Source: Nitrospirota bacterium
Lineage (GTDB): Bacteria > Nitrospirota > Thermodesulfovibrionia > Thermodesulfovibrionales > Magnetobacteriaceae
Assembly (NCBI GenBank): GCA_015233895.1
Contig: JADFXG010000002.1
Span: 1 to 64,000 of the forward strand
DNA: 64,000 bases
Direction: 5' to 3'
Made by a program: the position numbers and the translations under genes. This document shows, piece after piece, positions 32,936 through 51,202 of the stretch. How positions within the stretch are numbered: position 1 is the stretch's first letter; each line of letters starts with the position of its first letter. The notes below the pieces were generated by a model. It was not told the DNA's origin and did no database searches. It saw only the letters and a list, made by a program, of their open reading frames with translations.

Positions 32936-34570
32936 TTATCTTTTGGGTGACATATTCATCAGGAATCTGATGATTTGTACTAATGCGCCTTTAACCGTTG
33001 TGACTTCACTGGTCAGTCCTGTGAGTTTTCCTTCTAAGGTGGACTGCACGTCTTTTGTCTGAGTTTTTACGATTGATAAATCGTTGGAGAGTGATGAGAG
33101 TGAGTCTAATTTATTTTCAAGGCCGATTAGAATTCCACTGTTTATGCTTGCTATTTTTTCGTAATCTATCCTTTCAACAGTGAACTTTTCGTAATCTATC
33201 TTTTCGTATTCATTTGTTGATTGAACTCTTTGGCTTGCTGCAAGGAAATTTCCTAAAACCGAGACAACATCCCCCATCTGTTTTGAAAGCTCAGTGAGCT
33301 TTTCCTCTATTACAGTTGTGTGTTCAGTAGTGTTGATTACAGGCATTGATGAGCTGACAGGAGCGCTCTTACCGGCACCAGAGGCAAGAAGAGCGTTTAA
33401 CACTGATACCATATTTCCGGTCTGTTTTGAAAGCACAGAGAGTTTATTTTCTAAGCCTGTCTGATTATTCTCAATCCGGTTAATTACTGATGGAATCTCT
33501 CTGAGGGCTGAGGCAAGAGGTACCAATAACTTTTCAAAATCCCTCATAGAGCCTTTGCTGACATCGGCTATTTTTTCGTAATCTATAGTCTCAAAATTCA
33601 GTTTTGACAGCTCAGCTTTATTTATACCGCCCTTTTGAGCTGCTCCCACAGCAAGAAGCCCCTTTAAGGCTGACAGCATCTCCACAGTGTGTTTTGAAAG
33701 CCCGCTGAGTTTACCCTCCACTGCCGCCTGATTTTTCTCAAGCCGGCCTATAAGCGATGGAATGTCTCTAAGAGCAACTGTTAGCGGCACAAACCGGCGT
33801 TCAAAGTCCTGCAAGGCATCCCTGTTGGCATTGGTTATTTTGTCGTAGTCTGTTTTCTGAGCGCCAATATTAACAGTGGCGGCAAGCAGAGTGCTAAGAG
33901 CCTTTGAAATCCCTGCTATTTGCTTTGAGAGATTGGAAAGCGCCGATTCATTAACAGCATGGCCTATATCAGAGTCTCCTCTAAGTGATGGGGCAGCGTC
34001 CCGTGAGACTGATAAAAACGCAGCCAGCCTCTTTTCAAATTCTCTCAGCGTTTCTTTTGTGACATCAGAGATTTTTTCGTAATCTATTTTATCGTGCTCT
34101 CTTCTTACATAGTTTATTGCCGGCAGACTCTCTCCTTGTCCATCTGCATTTTGACGGCTGCTAAGAGACTCTAAAACATCCATTAACTGCTCAGACAGTG
34201 TGGTTATCTTTTCCTCAATACCAGCCTGATTTTTCTCAAGCTGTTTCTTAAGCATCGATAAGTCACGGAGGATTGTTGAAAACACATCATATTTGGTTTC
34301 AAATTCTTTAAAGTTCTTCTTGCCAGAACTAAGGATTCTCTCAATGTCTTTTATCTTTAAATCCAATCTGCCTTTTGTATTTAACTTTACAGCTCTTCTA
34401 AAAACAGGACCAACTGAACCCTTTGGCTTCAACACGGTAACAGCATCCGCTGCCTTTGAAACAAGACCCGCAGTAGTGTCATAGACATTTACAATGGCTG
34501 AGCCGCTTGCATTTAACGCTTTTGCCAATCCGCCTGCTACAAGCGATCTTCTTTCTGATGTATCATCCAT
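32936..34570 (-). CDS. Soluble coiled-coil repeat protein of the magnetosome cluster, with ALNASGSAI N-terminal module
   Basis: 544 aa. The ATG at 34570 has the ribosome site ggaggag and matches the HEAT protein start (MDD); the GTG 4 codons upstream sits inside that site. Residues about 9-45 form a module (GLAKALNASGSAIVNVYDTT then AGLVSKAADAV) shared at 24 of 31 positions with the HEAT-repeat gene at 39846-41153. The rest has about five degenerate repeats with the linker IDYEKI..... and (L/M)(R/Q)(D/E)FE(K/R)(R/L), the same repeat family as the VWA protein next door, and a matching C-terminal end (ALVQIIRFLMN). No signal peptide. Function unknown; inferred scaffold. Confidence 0.75.
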   Translation of the reverse strand: MDDTSERRSLVAGGLAKALNASGSAIVNVYDTTAGLVSKAADAVTVLKPKGSVGPVFRRAVKLNTKGRLDLKIKDIERILSSGKKNFKEFETKYDVFSTILRDLSMLKKQLEKNQAGIEEKITTLSEQLMDVLESLSSRQNADGQGESLPAINYVRREHDKIDYEKISDVTKETLREFEKRLAAFLSVSRDAAPSLRGDSDIGHAVNESALSNLSKQIAGISKALSTLLAATVNIGAQKTDYDKITNANRDALQDFERRFVPLTVALRDIPSLIGRLEKNQAAVEGKLSGLSKHTVEMLSALKGLLAVGAAQKGGINKAELSKLNFETIDYEKIADVSKGSMRDFEKLLVPLASALREIPSVINRIENNQTGLENKLSVLSKQTGNMVSVLNALLASGAGKSAPVSSSMPVINTTEHTTVIEEKLTELSKQMGDVVSVLGNFLAASQRVQSTNEYEKIDYEKFTVERIDYEKIASINSGILIGLENKLDSLSSLSNDLSIVKTQTKDVQSTLEGKLTGLTSEVTTVKGALVQIIRFLMNMSPKR

Positions 34571-34614
34571 TAACTCCTCCACTCTATAATAACGCTGCTA
34601 TTCATGTTTTTCCA

Positions 34615-37600
34615 CTACTTCCCCTGTGTCTGTATTGAGCCCAGAAGCCTGATAACATTTATAAGGGCGTCTTTAAATGTTGTCATTTCCGCTGAAAGCC
34701 CAGATAGTTTTTCTTCAATATCGCTCTGATGCTGCACAAAAGCGTTCCTCATTGGTGGAATTCCGGATATAAATGACGATACATCATCCAGCCGCTTTTC
34801 AAAGTCTTTCAGGGTTTCTTTTGTGGCATCAGCTATTTTTTCGTAATCTATCGCTTCGTAGTCAGTCTTTTGGGCGCTTTGTTTAAGCTCAAATAGCTCT
34901 GCTGAAAGAGTTGACAGCTTGGCTTCAATATCGCTCTGATGCTGCACAAAAGCGTTCCTCATTGGTGGAATTCCGGAGATAAATAATGATACATCATCCA
35001 GCCGCTTTTCAAAGTCTTTCAGAGTTTCTTTTGTGGCATCGGTGATTTTTTCGTAGTCTATCTTCTCATAATCAATAGCTTCATGGTCTGTTTTTTGTGT
35101 ACTCTGTTTAAGCTCAGAGAGCTGCTCTGCAAGTGTTGAAAGTTTGGCCTCTATATCGCTTTGGTGCTGTACAAAAGCGTTCCTCATAGGCGGAATTCCT
35201 GAGATAAATGCAGATACCGCATCAAGCCGCTTTTCAAAGTCTTTCAGAGTTTCTTTTGTGGCATCGGTGATTTTTTCGTAGTCTATCTTTTCATAATCAA
35301 TAGCTTCATAGTCTGTTTTTTGTGCACTTTGTTTAAGCTCAGAGAGCTGCTCTGAAAGTGTTGATAGTTTGGCTTCTATATCGCTTTGGTGCTGTACAAA
35401 AGCGTTCCTCATTGGCGGAATTCCTGAGATAAACGCCGACACTGCCTCAAGCCGCTTTTCAAAGTCTTTCATCGTTTCCTTATTGGTATCAGCGATTTTT
35501 TCATAATCTATTTTCTCTTGTACAGTCATTTCATGGTCAGGCTTCTTTTCTGCGTTTTGTTTAAGCTCAGAGAGCTGCTCTGCAAGTGTTGAAAGTTTCT
35601 CTTCTATATCACTCTGGTGCTGTACAAAAGCATTCCTCATAGGCGGAATTTCTGAGATAAATGCAGATACCGCATCCAGCCGCTTTTCAAAGTCTTTCAA
35701 TGTTTCTTTTGTGGCATCGGTGATTTTTTCATAATCTATCTTTTCATAACCAATAGCTTCTCTGTCGGTTTTTTGTGCGCCTTGTTTAAGCTCAGAGAGC
35801 TGCTCTGCAAGGCTCAAAAACATACCCTCTATATCGCTTTGATGCTGCACAAAGGCGTTTCTCATAGGTGGGATTCCGGTTATAAACGCCGACACTGCCT
35901 CAAGCCGCTTTTCGAAATCCTTCATCGTTTCCTTGTTGGTATCAGCGATTTTTTCGTAATCTATTTTCTCTTGTACAGTCATTTCATGTCCAGCCTTATG
36001 TATGTTTTGTTTAAGTTCGGAAATCATAGTTTCAAGGTGTGACAATTTCCCCTCTATATCAAGTTGGTGCTTTTCAAAAGTATTCCTCATAGGTGGGATT
36101 CCGGTTATAAATAAGGAAACTGCCTCAAGCCGCTTTTCAAAATCCTTCATCATTTCCTTCGTAGCAATGGCTCCTGTAAAAGTCCCAAGTTTAGAGGCAA
36201 AGTCAACAGTAAGCGCATTTTTCAACTCAGCAACTATCTCCAGAAAAGTTTCTTTAACCTTAGCATGAGTTTTACCTACGCTATCTGTCAGTTCATCTTT
36301 AATTGACTCTCTTATGCCATCATAAATCTTGTCAAAAGCCCCTGCCCCTGCGCCTACAGTATTAGTGATGGCTGCTATATCTTGCTGTAAAGTCGCATAC
36401 TCCTGACTCTTTGTCTCTCTGACATTAGAGATAGCATTTTTTGTTTCCATTTCAAGTCTTCTCAGAATGTTTTTTAGATTCTCCTGAATGCCCTCAACAA
36501 ATTCTCCCAATAAGCCGTGAATAAATGACTCAACTCCCTCGTTATCTGTTATTACCAATTCCGCTCTCTTTATTTCAGCAACTCCGGCAGTGACCTTTTT
36601 AAGCTCATCCTGTATGGCTTTGACGGCTTGTGTAACAGAGGTATCGTCAGATTTCCCACCTTTCCTTAGCAGCAATATAATCACTATTACAAACAGTAAC
36701 ACCACAGTTAACAGCAAAAGCAGCCACTGATTGCTTTGCACAGATGTCTTCAATGGCGAATCAACAACAGTCTCTTCTTTGGGTTTAGACTCAACAGCGG
36801 CATGAGGTGTGCTCTCAGGTGTCTGGACATTGGCTGCAGGTATTATGAATTCTTTCTTTAACTCGATGTCCTGTCCCTGATGCTTCAATTTAACAATACA
36901 CACGTGTTTACCAGTCGGCCCTGAGTAGTTGTAATCTATCAAATATTTAATCCGCTTAGGAATGAAAATAGTTCGCGAAAGAGTCTGAATCTCCTCAAAG
37001 CCTGGATTTACCAGCAAAGTGCCTTTTGTCAGTTTTGTAATGTTGTCAAGGGGCTCAAAGTAATGCCGGCTGTTGCCAAAAATCATCACATTGACAGGAA
37101 TATGAGGTTTTTTAATTTCTTTCATGAGAGTTTCAATCGGTATATCGCTATCTTCATCTTTAGCATCAGTAATAACAAGCATAGATGTCTTTGCCGTTTT
37201 AGATTTTTCGGCTAATTTAATTCCCTCTGAAATGCCGCTATAAAGCAGTGTTTTTTTCTCAAGAGCTGTTAGTGAATCTATTTTACTTGTGAGAACAGAT
37301 TTATCATCAGAGAGATTCTCAATAACTTTTACATAGTTACCAAAAGTCAAAAGAGTCGCATAGTTACCATCGCTAAAAGGAGCCAGCAGGTAGGATGCGT
37401 ATTTTTTTGCATTTGCAATCGGAATCCCGTTCATGCTTCTGCTGACATCTATTGCCAAAATAAGCGACGTGGACTCATCGTTAACCGATGTTATAGAAAA
37501 ATCACCAATTGTTTGGCCATCTACGGTAATACTGACGTTTTCCTTTTTTAACGGAACATCAGTTTCGTTAGAGACCACTACAGCCGCAACTTTAGCAAAA

Positions 37601-37734
37601 TCTCTGACCTTTACATCGTTTAATTCAAAAGGAGCTTTCTTAGGATTGGTAGCACCAACAGAGGCAACCACAACTGATACAACTAATACTAACAACACTG
37701 CAACTATTGCAGTAAGAACCACCCTCTTTTTCAT
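34615..37734 (-). CDS. Membrane-anchored von Willebrand A protein with seven coiled-coil repeats
   Basis: 1039 aa. N-terminal membrane helix or signal (about 6-27), a VWA domain (about 85-260) with MIDAS residues in DVSRS (96-100) and VITD (190), a Pro/Glu-rich linker, a second membrane helix (about 337-356), then a long coiled-coil region. From residue about 528 to the end there are seven copies of a ~73-aa unit: (L/M)KDFEKRLDAVSAFISGIPPM then RNAFVQHQSDIE.KLS.L.EQLSELKQ, linked by IDYEKI.D..KET. By topology the VWA domain would face the periplasm or magnetosome lumen and the repeats the cytoplasm. It is the second-to-last gene of the magnetosome cluster. I know no characterised homologue. 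Confidence 0.82.
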   Translation of the reverse strand: MKKRVVLTAIVAVLLVLVVSVVVASVGATNPKKAPFELNDVKVRDFAKVAAVVVSNETDVPLKKENVSITVDGQTIGDFSITSVNDESTSLILAIDVSRSMNGIPIANAKKYASYLLAPFSDGNYATLLTFGNYVKVIENLSDDKSVLTSKIDSLTALEKKTLLYSGISEGIKLAEKSKTAKTSMLVITDAKDEDSDIPIETLMKEIKKPHIPVNVMIFGNSRHYFEPLDNITKLTKGTLLVNPGFEEIQTLSRTIFIPKRIKYLIDYNYSGPTGKHVCIVKLKHQGQDIELKKEFIIPAANVQTPESTPHAAVESKPKEETVVDSPLKTSVQSNQWLLLLLTVVLLFVIVIILLLRKGGKSDDTSVTQAVKAIQDELKKVTAGVAEIKRAELVITDNEGVESFIHGLLGEFVEGIQENLKNILRRLEMETKNAISNVRETKSQEYATLQQDIAAITNTVGAGAGAFDKIYDGIRESIKDELTDSVGKTHAKVKETFLEIVAELKNALTVDFASKLGTFTGAIATKEMMKDFEKRLEAVSLFITGIPPMRNTFEKHQLDIEGKLSHLETMISELKQNIHKAGHEMTVQEKIDYEKIADTNKETMKDFEKRLEAVSAFITGIPPMRNAFVQHQSDIEGMFLSLAEQLSELKQGAQKTDREAIGYEKIDYEKITDATKETLKDFEKRLDAVSAFISEIPPMRNAFVQHQSDIEEKLSTLAEQLSELKQNAEKKPDHEMTVQEKIDYEKIADTNKETMKDFEKRLEAVSAFISGIPPMRNAFVQHQSDIEAKLSTLSEQLSELKQSAQKTDYEAIDYEKIDYEKITDATKETLKDFEKRLDAVSAFISGIPPMRNAFVQHQSDIEAKLSTLAEQLSELKQSTQKTDHEAIDYEKIDYEKITDATKETLKDFEKRLDDVSLFISGIPPMRNAFVQHQSDIEAKLSTLSAELFELKQSAQKTDYEAIDYEKIADATKETLKDFEKRLDDVSSFISGIPPMRNAFVQHQSDIEEKLSGLSAEMTTFKDALINVIRLLGSIQTQGK
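34620..36153 (-). repeat. Seven tandem in-gene repeats of about 220 bp
   Basis: The coding repeats of the VWA gene remain very similar at the DNA level (for example gcgttcctcattggtggaat recurs with few changes at each unit). Two sub-types alternate: units ending in a MTVQEKIDYEKIADTNKET linker and units ending in an AIDYEKIDYEKITDATKET linker, which suggests duplication of a two-unit block. Copy number could vary between strains. Confidence 0.8.
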
Positions 37735-37906: not shown

Positions 37907-38482
37907 TCAGTCTATATGATAGTTGTGCATTATTTTAGATAATGAAACTTTACTTTCCACCTCTTTAAAAGCCTTATGTACCTGTTTTAAAATAACATCG
38001 TATTCAGTAAACTTTGGCATGATGAGTTTCTTTTTTCTCTCAACTGAGTTTAAAGCATTCTGGATTTCATTAAACTTTGCAACCACTATTTCCTTGTCAT
38101 CCCTTACCTGAGAAAGCTCATCCCTGAGATGGTTTTTAACGCCAACAGTGTTTTGTAAATCCTCTTCCACTATTTTTATATTTCCCTTATAACGGTTTAT
38201 CTCCTCAATAATGCGATCCTTTTTGCTGTGTAAATCATCTATAGCACTGCCATAACCCTCCACCCTGGATTGCTCACGCTCAAACTCCTCTTTCGTCCTC
38301 TTTATGATAACTTCAAGTCCCTCGGTCTGTCCGGTAAGCGCTCTCAGCCTTTCTTTTAAAACAGCGTTTACTTTAGTCAGCTCTTCTTTACTTTTAGCAA
38401 GAATCTTTAGCTCGTCTATAAGTTCATGAACCTCTTCAAACACACTCTTTTCGGAATACATATCATCCATCAGTTCGTCCAT
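37907..38482 (-). CDS. Coiled-coil protein of the magnetosome cluster (Mad-like)
   Basis: 191 aa, nearly all predicted heptad helix after an acidic N-terminus (MDELMDDMYSEKSVFEEVHE). No membrane segment. It is the last of three consecutive coiled-coil genes. Long coiled-coil proteins (Mad23, Mad25, Mad26 group) are known from magnetosome clusters of Nitrospirota and Desulfobacterota with bullet-shaped crystals; I cannot say which, if any, this is. A 172-bp gap to the VWA gene start shows no gene. Confidence 0.7.
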   Translation of the reverse strand: MDELMDDMYSEKSVFEEVHELIDELKILAKSKEELTKVNAVLKERLRALTGQTEGLEVIIKRTKEEFEREQSRVEGYGSAIDDLHSKKDRIIEEINRYKGNIKIVEEDLQNTVGVKNHLRDELSQVRDDKEIVVAKFNEIQNALNSVERKKKLIMPKFTEYDVILKQVHKAFKEVESKVSLSKIMHNYHID

Positions 38483-38493
38483 GGCTCTTTCAC

Positions 38494-39210
38494 CTAACCC
38501 TGAGTCTCATCGTAGCCAGCAAACTTTGCATCCATGCAGTCACGGTATTTCTTTTGTAAATCAGCTATTTTACCCAGATTGATAATCCTCTCGCCCTCCA
38601 AAACATTCACCCGGCGCACTGAAGACTCTAACTTACCGGCAAATCTTTCCAGCTTTGACTCTAAAAATCCAATGTCGCCAACAAGGTCAGCCTTTTCGCT
38701 CTCAAGCTCTGAAATCCGCATCTTTGCCAACTCAAGCTCTTTAACAGCCCTTTCAGTTTTCACTTTTAAGTCATGAATTGAAACCTGTGCTGCGTTTCTT
38801 TCATTAACCATATACTCCACCTCGGCCATCAACTGGCTCTTGGCCGGAGTTTCCTCACGCATTTGCTCAATCAGCGCCTCACGCTCCGCTTTTTCAAGCC
38901 TGAGCTCTGATATTACACCTTTTGCGCTTTCAATATCACGCACCAGTGCCGCATTGATGGAAAGCACCTCGTTTAACTCTGCCTCCATTTTTACCAAAGA
39001 GACCACTATTTCCTTTACCGTGTTCCCAATGTTAGGTGAGGCTATATCTTCATTAAGCAGCTTGAATATGTTTAACTCTTTCGTCTTAAAAAATCTCTTT
39101 GCTACCGGACTCATTAAAGCGTCCCCGCCATTTTCAACAGTTACATCATTACTGTGGGCATCTGTTTCGCTCCTCTGCTCTGGCTCCTCTGACAAGTATA
39201 AGTTCTCCAT
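38494..39210 (-). CDS. Coiled-coil protein of the magnetosome cluster (Mad-like)
   Basis: 238 aa. An acidic, probably disordered N-terminus (about 1-40) precedes a helical segment FFKTKELNIFKLLNEDIASP and a long coiled coil (about 65-225) rich in Glu, Lys and Leu (LEAEK/ISELESEKADL pattern). No cysteine pair or membrane helix. It lies 4 bp after the previous coiled-coil gene and 11 bp before the next, so the three are one translational block. Confidence 0.7.
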   Translation of the reverse strand: MENLYLSEEPEQRSETDAHSNDVTVENGGDALMSPVAKRFFKTKELNIFKLLNEDIASPNIGNTVKEIVVSLVKMEAELNEVLSINAALVRDIESAKGVISELRLEKAEREALIEQMREETPAKSQLMAEVEYMVNERNAAQVSIHDLKVKTERAVKELELAKMRISELESEKADLVGDIGFLESKLERFAGKLESSVRRVNVLEGERIINLGKIADLQKKYRDCMDAKFAGYDETQG

Positions 39211-39214
39211 GGTT

Positions 39215-39844
39215 TCACCTTTTATAATATTTTATTTTAAAATTTCTCTCCACTGTCCTTATCCCTGAGTGAAGACCTTGCAATGCGTCGGCAGTCCACT
39301 TAAGCCGTTCGTGAAGAAACTCCAGGTCTTTGTGCTTGCTTGAAATCTTTTGTTCTGCCTCTTCTGTCTTATCTTTGAAAGTCTCAATCTCCCCTTTTGT
39401 AAAATCAAGCTCTATGAGGCTTGCACCTATGTCGTTTATTTCTTTGTTGAGTTTATCCGATAACGTATTGTACTTTTCCATCAACTTAACCTTTTCTGAC
39501 TCTAAGAACTTTATTTCAGAAGCTAATCTGTTTTCCTCAGAAAGCGGCGGCAGGTTTTTCCTCTTTATCGCTTTAATCTTCTCGTCGTACTTTTTAGCCT
39601 CTTTCTCTTTTACTAAAACCTCATATTCAAGTTTTTTGATTTCCTTTTCCATATTGTAGTTCATGTCTTCAAGAGTCTCAACCTCTTTAGCAAGTTCCTT
39701 CTTCTCACTGCCAAGGCTTTCCGAATAAGCGTTTAGCTCCTCCTGATTTTCAAGGATTTTAGCTATTGCGGCATCCCGGATACTCTCAGAGCTGAAATAA
39801 CCGTCATCAGACATTATGTCGTAGTTCTCTTCATCCATATCCAT
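39215..39844 (-). CDS. Coiled-coil protein of the magnetosome cluster (Mad-like)
   Basis: 209 aa. Acidic N-terminus (MDMDEENYDIMSDDGYFS), then an almost continuous coiled coil with a proline break near KRKNLPPLSEENR (about residue 95). The ATG lies one base after the stop of the HEAT gene; a second ATG two codons later has better spacing to the ribosome site. Same family type as its two downstream neighbours, sequence unrelated. Confidence 0.7.
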   Translation of the reverse strand: MDMDEENYDIMSDDGYFSSESIRDAAIAKILENQEELNAYSESLGSEKKELAKEVETLEDMNYNMEKEIKKLEYEVLVKEKEAKKYDEKIKAIKRKNLPPLSEENRLASEIKFLESEKVKLMEKYNTLSDKLNKEINDIGASLIELDFTKGEIETFKDKTEEAEQKISSKHKDLEFLHERLKWTADALQGLHSGIRTVERNFKIKYYKR

Positions 39845-39845
39845 C

Positions 39846-41153
39846 CTACATACCCTCTCCTGAAGTCTCTGATTGTTCGGCAGCTTTCACTGAAGCACCA
39901 TTAGAAACCGATTCGGCCACTAACGGGGACAACTCCAGCGTCTTTACCCCCTGCCACCATCTCCTTAACTTATCTATCTCCGATGCAAGCACATCCCCTG
40001 TGAGATCAACATTGAAAGACACATACTCGCCGGTTATTGTATTTATGGCTTCAAGCGCCTTTTCCCGTATGTCGCGTGATTCATCGGTAAGAGTGCGAAT
40101 AAGGGGTGAGACGGCTGACTTGTCTTTTATCGTTGAGAGGGCTGTTATGGCCGACTTTTTGACTCCCTCATCTCTGTCGTGAAGCGCTTGTACAAGGGCT
40201 GGAACAGTGTCTGAGGAGTCTCTCCAGCCAAGGAATGTGGCCGCTGTTTTTCTGACCTCCTGGTGTTCATCCTTAAGTGCATTTAGCAGCACCGGAATTG
40301 CGTTATCGTCTCCGGCAAGCTTGTAAAGCCCCCGCAAAGCTCCCACTCTCACTCTGAAATTTGAAAACCTCGCAGCCTCTTTTAAAAACGGGATAGCAGA
40401 AGTGTCGTCCAGATTTATAAGCGCATTTATTATGTCTGAAATAAGGTATGGATTTTTGTAGCCTGCAGCCTCTATCAGTATTGGCACGGCTGCCTTAAAC
40501 CCAAAGCGTCCAAGCTCAGACACCGCCATTATCTTTATTTCCATCTCAGAGTCAAGAATGTCCCCGGCAATTTTAGCAAATATCTCCCGTTCAGAGTCCG
40601 TTAAAAACTCCTTGCTCCTTATTGCACGCTGTATGGCTGCCTCTACGGAGGCCGCTACTTTGCTCTCATCCGGTTTACCTTTTTTATTTAACGAGCTGGT
40701 TGCAGATTTTGATTGGTGTCTCTGCGCCTCTTCCTGGTTTTCAAGCTCTTTGAGCTCTGCCTGTCGGGTTTTTAACCGCTCTATCTCACGTTCGTAGTCT
40801 TTAACCTGTCTGACAATCGCCCCTATGCTTTCCGATTCGGCATCCTCTCCCTCAGCACTAAGTCTCCCGACCTCAGCGTAGAGTTTCTTTACTTTACCCT
40901 CGTAATCTTTAATTTTAGCATCAAGGCTCTTTTTCTCACCCGGCTTTGTAAGTCTCAGAGAAGAGAACATATTGTCCGGAAACTTTGGCAGAGCTGGCAT
41001 TCTGGGCGTAATGTTGACCACAGAGTTTGCCGCTTTTGAGACAAGGTCTGCCGTTGTGTCGTACATGTTTAAAATAGCAGAGCCGCTTGCGTTTAACGCC
41101 CTTGCAAACCCATCAAGTATAGATGATTTCCCTTGTGTTGATTTATCGTCCAT
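39846..41153 (-). CDS. HEAT-repeat protein with the ALNASGSAI N-terminal module
   Basis: 435 aa. Residues about 12-48 (GFARALNASGSAILNMYDTT then ADLVSKAANSV) match the N-terminus of the soluble repeat protein at 32936-34570. A coiled coil follows (about 70-150), then five to six HEAT/PBS-lyase-like repeats (about 190-390; AVPILIEAAGYKNPYLISDI, AIPVLLNALKDEHQEVRKTA, AVSPLIRTLTDESRDIREKA). HEAT arrays bind partners. Position in the magnetosome cluster and the shared module suggest a role with the repeat proteins. RBS gggaggt. Confidence 0.78.
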   Translation of the reverse strand: MDDKSTQGKSSILDGFARALNASGSAILNMYDTTADLVSKAANSVVNITPRMPALPKFPDNMFSSLRLTKPGEKKSLDAKIKDYEGKVKKLYAEVGRLSAEGEDAESESIGAIVRQVKDYEREIERLKTRQAELKELENQEEAQRHQSKSATSSLNKKGKPDESKVAASVEAAIQRAIRSKEFLTDSEREIFAKIAGDILDSEMEIKIMAVSELGRFGFKAAVPILIEAAGYKNPYLISDIINALINLDDTSAIPFLKEAARFSNFRVRVGALRGLYKLAGDDNAIPVLLNALKDEHQEVRKTAATFLGWRDSSDTVPALVQALHDRDEGVKKSAITALSTIKDKSAVSPLIRTLTDESRDIREKALEAINTITGEYVSFNVDLTGDVLASEIDKLRRWWQGVKTLELSPLVAESVSNGASVKAAEQSETSGEGM

Positions 41154-41169
41154 TTAGTATATACCTCCC

Positions 41170-42075
41170 TTACCTGAGATTCAATAACAGTTTCAACGCC
41201 ATGAAAATTAACAGAAAAGCTATAATCTTTTTTATAACTTCACCATTGGTACGTTTTGCAGCCTTTGCGCCAAAAAGAGCGCCCAGTATTGTTCCAACTC
41301 CTATAAATATAGCGTAATCAAAGTCTATTGTGTGAAACCCTATAAAGGCCAGCACGCCAAAGAAACTGGTTATCACTATAATGAAGTGGCTGGTAGCGGC
41401 AGCAACGTGTATCGGTATGCCAATAAAGCCCATCAGCGGCACGTGCAGAAGGCCTCCGCCTATTCCCAAAAGCCCCGAAAGAATACCTACTATAAAACTT
41501 CCGCCAAACCCGACTGAAAGATCCGGCGCATACGTGTGCGTTTGCCCATATGAGTCGTAAAGCACTCGTTTTTTGGGACGCTCCAGGTTTTTTTCACAAA
41601 TCAGCGAAAAATCCTCCATAAATATCATACTGTAGGAAAGCGCTATTAATAAAACAGAAAATATTACAGAAAACACAAGAAAATTCAACGCTTGTGTCAG
41701 AAACGCTCCTATTATCACACCCACAACAGCTATCACTGAAAACTTCACTCCAAGCTCGTAATCTATTCGTTTTTGATCTATATAGGAAAACGTACCGGAA
41801 AGCGCATTTAAAAACACCACCGCAGTAGAAGTACCTATTGCGTGCTGTGGCGTAAACTTATAAAAAATCAACAGAATCGGCACCAGTAAAAATCCGCCGC
41901 CAGCCCCTATCATTGTGCCTAAAAATCCCACAAAAACCCCAACTACCACTACCTTAAGCACATCCAGAAATCCGTCAAGCGTCAGGTGCTGAGGCACCAC
42001 AAGCACCCTCGCACAGCCCGTGATAAGCATGATGAGCACAATAACCGCTGCTAATTTTAGTATCGTCTTTCTCAA
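41170..42075 (-). CDS. TauE/SafE-type membrane protein, MamO C-terminal-like
   Basis: 301 aa, eight to nine membrane helices. The two TauE halves are visible by FLGTMIGAGGGFLLVPILLI and LSGLLGIGGGLLHVPLMGF. In Alphaproteobacteria MamO fuses a protease-like domain to a TauE domain; in the Nitrospirota the TauE part is known as a separate protein (MamO-Cter). Here there is no protease domain. Overlaps the preceding coiled-coil gene by 4 nt (ATGA). Confidence 0.75.
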   Translation of the reverse strand: MRKTILKLAAVIVLIMLITGCARVLVVPQHLTLDGFLDVLKVVVVGVFVGFLGTMIGAGGGFLLVPILLIFYKFTPQHAIGTSTAVVFLNALSGTFSYIDQKRIDYELGVKFSVIAVVGVIIGAFLTQALNFLVFSVIFSVLLIALSYSMIFMEDFSLICEKNLERPKKRVLYDSYGQTHTYAPDLSVGFGGSFIVGILSGLLGIGGGLLHVPLMGFIGIPIHVAAATSHFIIVITSFFGVLAFIGFHTIDFDYAIFIGVGTILGALFGAKAAKRTNGEVIKKIIAFLLIFMALKLLLNLR

Positions 42076-49944: not shown

Positions 49945-50532
49945 CTAATCAACCATTGGGACATGCTCTGCTCCCTCCTCCGATTTATAAAACTGCTTCT
50001 CATGAAAACCAAGATTTTTGGCAAAAATATTATAAGGAAACAGATATATATAATCATTGTACTCATAGACGGCCACGTTGTAGTTAGTTCTGGCATAGGC
50101 AATACGCTTTTCGGTAGCTGCCATTATATCCATTAGATACAAGAAAGGCCCTTTAGCCATAAGCTCCGGAGATCTCTCACCAAGGTAAGAAAGCACGCTT
50201 AAGAGACGCACTATTTCGCTCTTTGTCTGCTCCTGAGCCGCATAGTTTGTGCCGGTTCTGAGCAACCCGTTTAATTCAACCAAAAGGTTAAACAGTTTGT
50301 TCTCTGTCTCCATATACATATTGGCAGCCTTCCCGGCGCTTTCCAGCACTTGCAGCCGCCTCTGTTCTTCAGACTTGAGGTTATTTGCCGATATATCGTA
50401 AATATGCTCCTCATCCACCAACTGATTGTAGATAAACGCATGGACCAGAGACTTATAAAGCAAAAATATACCGACAAATGCTAAAAAATACTTTACGCTC
50501 AGATATTTTGATCTTAATTTTTTACTTATCAT
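49945..50532 (-). CDS. MamQ-like LemA-family protein (copy II, divergent)
   Basis: 195 aa. A single membrane helix (about 12-32) is followed by a helical LemA-like region ending in YARTNYNVAVYEYNDYIYLF and FPYNIFAKNLG, which align with the LemA C-terminal motif (YN..V..YN......P.N). The RRNDLIPNLV motif is missing. A second, weaker MamQ copy is known in 'Magnetobacterium' clusters. It overlaps the EcsC-like gene by 11 nt. Confidence 0.7.
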   Translation of the reverse strand: MISKKLRSKYLSVKYFLAFVGIFLLYKSLVHAFIYNQLVDEEHIYDISANNLKSEEQRRLQVLESAGKAANMYMETENKLFNLLVELNGLLRTGTNYAAQEQTKSEIVRLLSVLSYLGERSPELMAKGPFLYLMDIMAATEKRIAYARTNYNVAVYEYNDYIYLFPYNIFAKNLGFHEKQFYKSEEGAEHVPMVD

Positions 50533-51202
50533 CTTTCCAGCTTATCTGTATGTTATCATTATCCCACACACTGAAATACTTCCGGGCATGGTTGCCAACT
50601 GTCATAGTTGACACCAGATTAAAGGATGCGCCAAGAGGCACGCCTATAAATGGTATAAATCTGTAGTATTTCTTTAAAAGCCTTGGTATAAGCCGCTCAG
50701 CAAACTCCACCGTGGCTACCTCAACACCCCTGTTGATGTAACTTTTTGCAATCTCATCCACGGCAGTTCTTAGCACTGAGGCAGCAGTGGCCTTAAAGGC
50801 CTGGCTTGAACCGGAAAACCCCAGCAGTGCCAGCGTTATTGCCTTTAGCTCATCCTCACCAAGTTCTACTCCGTACGCTGCTGATATGGCAAAACAGAGC
50901 TCTATCTGAATTCTTAACACCAGTGCTAAATCCACAAGAGAACCTGCAAGTACTGTCCCAATCGTCCCAATAATAGGGATTGTCATAGGAAGGGTCGTAA
51001 GCCCCCCAATCCCTGCCGCCTTATAAGCCGCCTTTTTCATAAGATTACCGGAAACGGTATAAGATAAATACTTTTGCGGTTTATCACCGCCCATTTTTAG
51101 ATCAAACTCATCAATAAGTGCATTGACATCACTTTTAATGCTGGGCAGATGCGTGCCACTCAAAGTCAGCACCTTATCAAACCATTCGTATTTATCAGCC
51201 AT
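50522..51202 (-). CDS. EcsC-family protein of the magnetosome cluster
   Basis: 226 aa. Helical, with a hydrophobic glycine-rich segment (GIGGLTTLPMTIPIIGTIGT) and the EcsC-type regions VLRIQIELCFAISAAYGVEL, AKSYINRGVEVATVEFAERL, RFIPFIGVPLGASFN. EcsC proteins are associated with ABC export in Bacillus, but the family function is not settled. It sits between mamM and mamQ-II, and its stop overlaps mamQ-II, so co-expression is likely. Confidence 0.7.
   Translation of the reverse strand: MADKYEWFDKVLTLSGTHLPSIKSDVNALIDEFDLKMGGDKPQKYLSYTVSGNLMKKAAYKAAGIGGLTTLPMTIPIIGTIGTVLAGSLVDLALVLRIQIELCFAISAAYGVELGEDELKAITLALLGFSGSSQAFKATAASVLRTAVDEIAKSYINRGVEVATVEFAERLIPRLLKKYYRFIPFIGVPLGASFNLVSTMTVGNHARKYFSVWDNDNIQISWKDDK

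Follow-up and report, generated by a model that had tools for sequence, protein, structure and literature searches.

The window, which is the whole stretch of 64,000 nucleotides analysed here (positions 1 to 64,000 of contig JADFXG010000002.1, assembly GCA_015233895.1, from a Nitrospirota bacterium of the family Magnetobacteriaceae), carries the magnetosome genes for MamE, MamQ, MamA, MamB, MamM and MamP. Its gene order, mamE-mamQ-man4-man5-man6-mamO-Cter-mad23-mad24-mad25-mad26, agrees with the order published for Nitrospirota, given there as mad26-mad25-mad24-mad23-mamO-Cter-man6-man5-man4-mamQ-mamE (PMC9376291). By synteny, an EcsC-family protein at 50522-51202 occupies the place of mad31. 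The features that matter for the following are:

32936-34570, minus strand: second carrier of the module, 544 aa, module plus IDYEKI repeat body, no transmembrane helix; only in the four genomes of the genus
34337-34570, minus strand: module block of the second carrier, residues 1-78, from BLASTP comparison with Mad23 and a whole-genome search
34439-34531, minus strand: module core of the second carrier, 31 aa, 24/31 identity
34615-37734, minus strand: McaA-like VWA protein (Pfam VWA; transmembrane helix, MIDAS and repeat comparison, E=2e-44)
37907-38482, minus strand: mad26, coiled coil (synteny; orthologues in G016 and G018)
38494-39210, minus strand: mad25, coiled coil (synteny; orthologues in G016 and G018)
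39215-39844, minus strand: mad24, coiled coil (synteny; orthologues in G016 and G018)
39846-41153, minus strand: Mad23, HEAT protein, 435 aa (Pfam HEAT_2, synteny, AF2)
40896-41153, minus strand: Mad23 residues 1-86, the block duplicated in the second carrier (BLASTP 49% identity over 85 aa, E=2e-16)
41019-41111, minus strand: module core in Mad23, 31 aa, residues 15-45 (24/31 identity, signature, amphipathic period)
41170-42075, minus strand: mamO-Cter, TauE/SafE (Pfam TauE, E=4e-51, and position)

Because the window carries mam genes in the published Nitrospirota order (PMC9376291), we identify the HEAT protein at 39846-41153, from its sequence and position, as Mad23. Its HEAT repeats are recognised by Pfam (HEAT_2, E=7e-41), AF2 modelling with 16 sequences predicts coiled-coil helices at residues 71-147 and a confident HEAT solenoid at 163-416, and the gene lies between mamO-Cter and mad24-mad25-mad26, as in its relatives. 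The layout is that of an N-terminal helix, a flexible basic and proline-containing linker, a coiled-coil hairpin and a HEAT solenoid. In the solenoid, the coiled coil and its place in the mad23-26 set it resembles Mad23 of Desulfovibrio magneticus RS-1, which is described as having HEAT and coiled-coil domains and no transmembrane domain (PMC12748827). In RS-1, the late-stage fractions of magnetosomes are enriched for Mad23, which makes two-hybrid contacts with Mad25 and Mad10, and deletion of mad23 leaves the magnetosomes dispersed in the cell; the linking of magnetosomes into subchains by Mad23 is shown for RS-1 only (PMC12748827). A role in sorting Mad proteins to the membrane has been proposed from the HEAT domain (PMC9840458). 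At the C-terminus of most Mad23 proteins (e.g. L033 9956-11623) there is a Rho_N/SAP-like motif (LKRMSKAELISLC...FTKAELINLL; below the cut-off for Pfam Rho_N, E=0.01), which those of the window genus lack. In Ca. Magnetobacterium casense MYR-1 (L048 9983-11633) mad23 is read as two ORFs of 203 and 321 aa, possibly owing to a frameshift, and a two-ORF mad23 is also present in G003, which is probably the same genome as MYR-1.

At residues 15-45 Mad23 has GFARALNASGSAILNMYDTTADLVSKAANSV, the counterpart of which in the second carrier is GLAKALNASGSAIVNVYDTTAGLVSKAADAV. The earlier note had counted 24 identical positions out of 31 and had described the bodies of the two proteins as different; both statements hold, with HEAT repeats in the one and a coiled-coil repeat body in the other. 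The match is in fact longer than 31 aa: BLASTP finds 42 of 85 residues identical (E=2e-16 with compositional adjustment), phmmer gives E=4e-16 for the same pair, and the matching block spans from the start methionine to LDxKIKD at about residue 85. At E<=10 no further copy of the module is found in the genome, which is 3.7 Mb long and 100% complete. For the second carrier, the ATG at 34570 is preferred as start to the GTG at 34582, because GTGGAGGAG just upstream resembles a ribosome-binding site and the relatives begin MDDTSE. A known domain is rejected as the source of the module, the best Pfam match, found in single members, having E=0.045 and the best PDB match E=0.17; the repeat body of the second carrier likewise matches no Pfam family over its cut-off.

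Comparison with relatives identifies the module as Mad23's own conserved N-terminus, hence as part of a known family and not as a free-standing element. It starts all Mad23 relatives found with their N-terminus present, in both Nitrospirota and Desulfobacterota, except at a split locus in G489, and it is absent from the non-Mad23 HEAT proteins of the same genomes. Across the two phyla, 44 distinct N-termini match the module profile, of which 41 retain the signature A-x2-L-N-x2-G-x7-D and the remaining three deviate solely at L or N. Mad23 and McaA/McaB are already known; the open-access text consulted gave no account of the Mad23 N-terminal signature, of its exclusive distribution or of its transfer to another body beside an McaA-like protein.

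The module profile, of 47 positions, was run over 395 Nitrospirota and 395 Desulfobacterota genomes, and MamM was detected with NF033615, all matches being over the curated cut-off. The module is found in 20 of the 395 Nitrospirota genomes, spanning 12 genera and several families, and MamM is found in the same 20 (Fisher p=5e-34, ignoring phylogeny), a co-occurrence that arises because the module is part of Mad23. The expectation that Nitrospirota matches lie in magnetosome genomes was therefore borne out, MamM being present in 20/20 genomes with the module and 0/375 without. Six of the 395 Desulfobacterota genomes match the profile, five at mad23 loci and one (G441, E=8e-4) by chance, in a short-chain dehydrogenase of a genome that has no MamM-like CDF gene; the mad23-bearing Desulfobacterota genomes examined all have MamM/MamB-like CDF genes, mostly on the mad23 contig. 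The possible meaning of magnetosome targeting, raised in the earlier note, comes through this survey with a qualification: the module is not seen widely in non-magnetotactic genomes, and it is explained in part by a known family, Mad23. A general Nitrospirota module is rejected by the 375 genomes that lack it, and a tag spread over many magnetosome proteins by the finding that, outside the window genus, the module is borne only by Mad23 or by the HEAT-less Mad23 piece of G489.

In the latter genome, a member of the Desulfobacterota, a short frame broken by a single in-frame stop encodes the module, a coiled coil, an acidic linker and a C-terminus of the Mad23 type. The HEAT solenoid is encoded by another gene, two ORFs further downstream, and the N-terminus of that gene's product does not match the module profile. 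The HEAT-less module protein, a 394-aa coiled-coil protein and the HEAT protein stand in tandem (L090 4543-8058), and this set sits between mamO-Cter and mad24-26-like genes. Judging from the gene arrangement, we read G489 as a second, independent uncoupling of the module from HEAT.

The N-terminal helix itself is a weak prediction, because it spans residues 9-44 of Mad23 at a pLDDT of only 30-49, ahead of a disordered linker, and because the AF2 model of the second carrier is uninformative (pLDDT 33 overall). Averaged over 17 aligned modules, hydrophobicity shows a period of 99.5 degrees, a periodicity that none of 20000 column shuffles reached and that does not separate 98.2 degrees (11-residue, synuclein-like) from 100 degrees; L, V, Y and F fall on one face of the helix and N, D and K on the opposite one. 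A transmembrane anchor is rejected, the highest 19-residue Kyte-Doolittle score among the modules tested being 1.59. Among relatives the HeliQuest-type score lies between 0.49 and 1.6, with the window Mad23 helix at a modest 0.49, so that lipid binding is possible and not indicated for all of them. Curvature-sensing or interfacial helices of the ALPS type are amphipathic, carry few charges and are rich in S, T, G and A. The module shares these properties, but its sequence is far more constrained (invariant L-N, G and D) than that of the usual lipid sensors. Amphipathicity by itself cannot tell membrane binding from helix packing; the invariance of the polar residues argues against pure lipid binding and suggests that there is a specific partner, either in place of lipid or in addition to it.

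Unlike known Mad23, that of the window genus shares its N-terminal helix with a second protein, so that the earlier note's picture of one module on unlike bodies stands for this genus, to which the second carrier is confined. The second carrier was found in all four genomes of the genus and in none of 15 other genomes of the family, it is kept down to 57% protein identity among the four, and the order mad26, VWA gene, second carrier recurs in G016 and G018. The module is under purifying selection in both carriers, with a dN/dS that is mostly 0.05-0.18 (0.54 in a single pair of close relatives that differ little), and in the most distant pair of second carriers the module is 69% conserved vs 56% for the body. 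A tree puts three of the four second-carrier copies with the Mad23 of the genus, with weak support.

The adjacent protein at 34615-37734 has hydrophobic stretches at residues 1-32 (signal/TM) and 331-363 (transmembrane at about 338-356), a VWA domain at 91-252 with an intact MIDAS (D96VSRS) and a long cytoplasmic tail of about six IDYEKI-type repeats, which match the body of the second carrier (E=2e-44). Signal peptide, VWA domain with a DXSXS MIDAS, a single transmembrane helix and a cytoplasmic C-terminus also make up McaA of Magnetospirillum magneticum AMB-1, to which we liken the protein by architecture and not by sequence homology (PMC9512821). McaA is a marker of the curved inner membrane and acts together with McaB, which is bound to magnetosomes (PMC9512821, PMC13170167). 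McaA also has a conserved C-terminal region, 530-665. In both systems a membrane-anchored VWA-MIDAS protein stands beside a coiled-coil partner, which in AMB-1 is magnetosome-associated; McaB, however, is held by an N-terminal transmembrane helix, in whose place the second carrier has the Mad23-type amphipathic helix, and large repeats common to both partners set the window pair apart from McaA/McaB. Because it has no N-terminal transmembrane helix (no 19-residue stretch exceeds 1.6 on the Kyte-Doolittle scale), the second carrier is not classed as McaB, though it may work in a similar way. Relatives of the first 358 residues of the VWA protein occur in 12/20 MamM-positive vs 1/375 MamM-negative genomes, a comparison that is confounded by their belonging mostly to one family and is therefore no more than supportive. 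In other genera of the family these relatives lie on contigs other than that of mad23, and one of them (L122) has a tail that resembles apolipoprotein at a score below the Pfam cut-off.

For a module that is conserved, amphipathic, not transmembrane and reused on another body, the role that fits best is targeting or docking, and RS-1 Mad23 co-purifies with late magnetosomes without a transmembrane domain (PMC12748827). On balance we lean towards a mechanism in which the Mad23 N-terminal helix would dock a soluble HEAT/coiled-coil scaffold on the magnetosome surface, either on the curved membrane of the magnetosome or at a fixed protein partner there, as suggested by the invariant N, G and D, and docked Mad23 would let neighbouring magnetosomes be joined into chains through its HEAT and coiled-coil parts. 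In the window genus, Mad23 residues 1 to about 86 were duplicated onto the IDYEKI body, which would recruit a second protein to the magnetosome side. The VWA protein thus carries the repeat body on a membrane anchor and the second carrier has it behind the Mad23 helix, which is most simply read as the Mad23 helix providing the magnetosome end. Since the repeats of the second carrier match the cytoplasmic tail of the VWA protein, the pair probably forms a bridge between magnetosomes and inner membrane, like that of McaB and McaA in AMB-1. We speculate further, and more tentatively, that bullet-magnetite bacteria may have, in the Mad23 N-terminal helix, a magnetosome-targeting tag that is portable, and that its transfer to a new body may have produced a soluble counterpart of McaB, which pairs via shared repeats with an McaA-like VWA landmark in the membrane and so ties magnetosome bundles to the envelope.

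The module and the start of the coiled coil could instead form a (hetero-)oligomerisation helix, with which the IDYEKI protein would co-assemble with Mad23 and have no direct targeting role. The duplicated block does take in the first part of the coiled coil, RS-1 Mad23 self-interacts by two-hybrid (PMC12748827) and the invariant small or polar residues A, N, G and D suit helix-helix packing, but every other genus has a single carrier protein and a disordered linker of variable length parts the predicted helix from the coiled coil; we consider this reading unlikely, if the least so of those that compete with docking. It is improbable that a recent tandem duplication near mad23 produced the second copy as a fusion without function: confinement to one genus, proximity to mad23 and the weakly supported tree would all fit, yet the copy is retained throughout the diverged genomes of the genus with low module dN/dS, an intact signature and a module no less conserved than the body. 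To chance or low complexity of an alanine/serine-rich helix we give practically no credence, for although the dehydrogenase match in G441 shows that the motif can be weakly mimicked, the compositionally adjusted BLASTP value and the perfect co-occurrence with MamM reject it.

Docking by the Mad23 helix would bear on the question of how soluble Mad proteins reach the magnetosomes of deep-branching magnetotactic bacteria, the late magnetosome proteins of RS-1 being described as lacking transmembrane domains (PMC12748827). A helix of 35-40 residues that perfectly tracks magnetosome genes and is reused on a second protein is a candidate recruitment signal. The module may serve as a tag for loading cargo onto bullet-shaped magnetosomes and as a compact marker for locating such gene clusters. 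The finding also suggests that Nitrospirota possess an McaA/McaB-like bridge between membrane and magnetosome, made from other parts.
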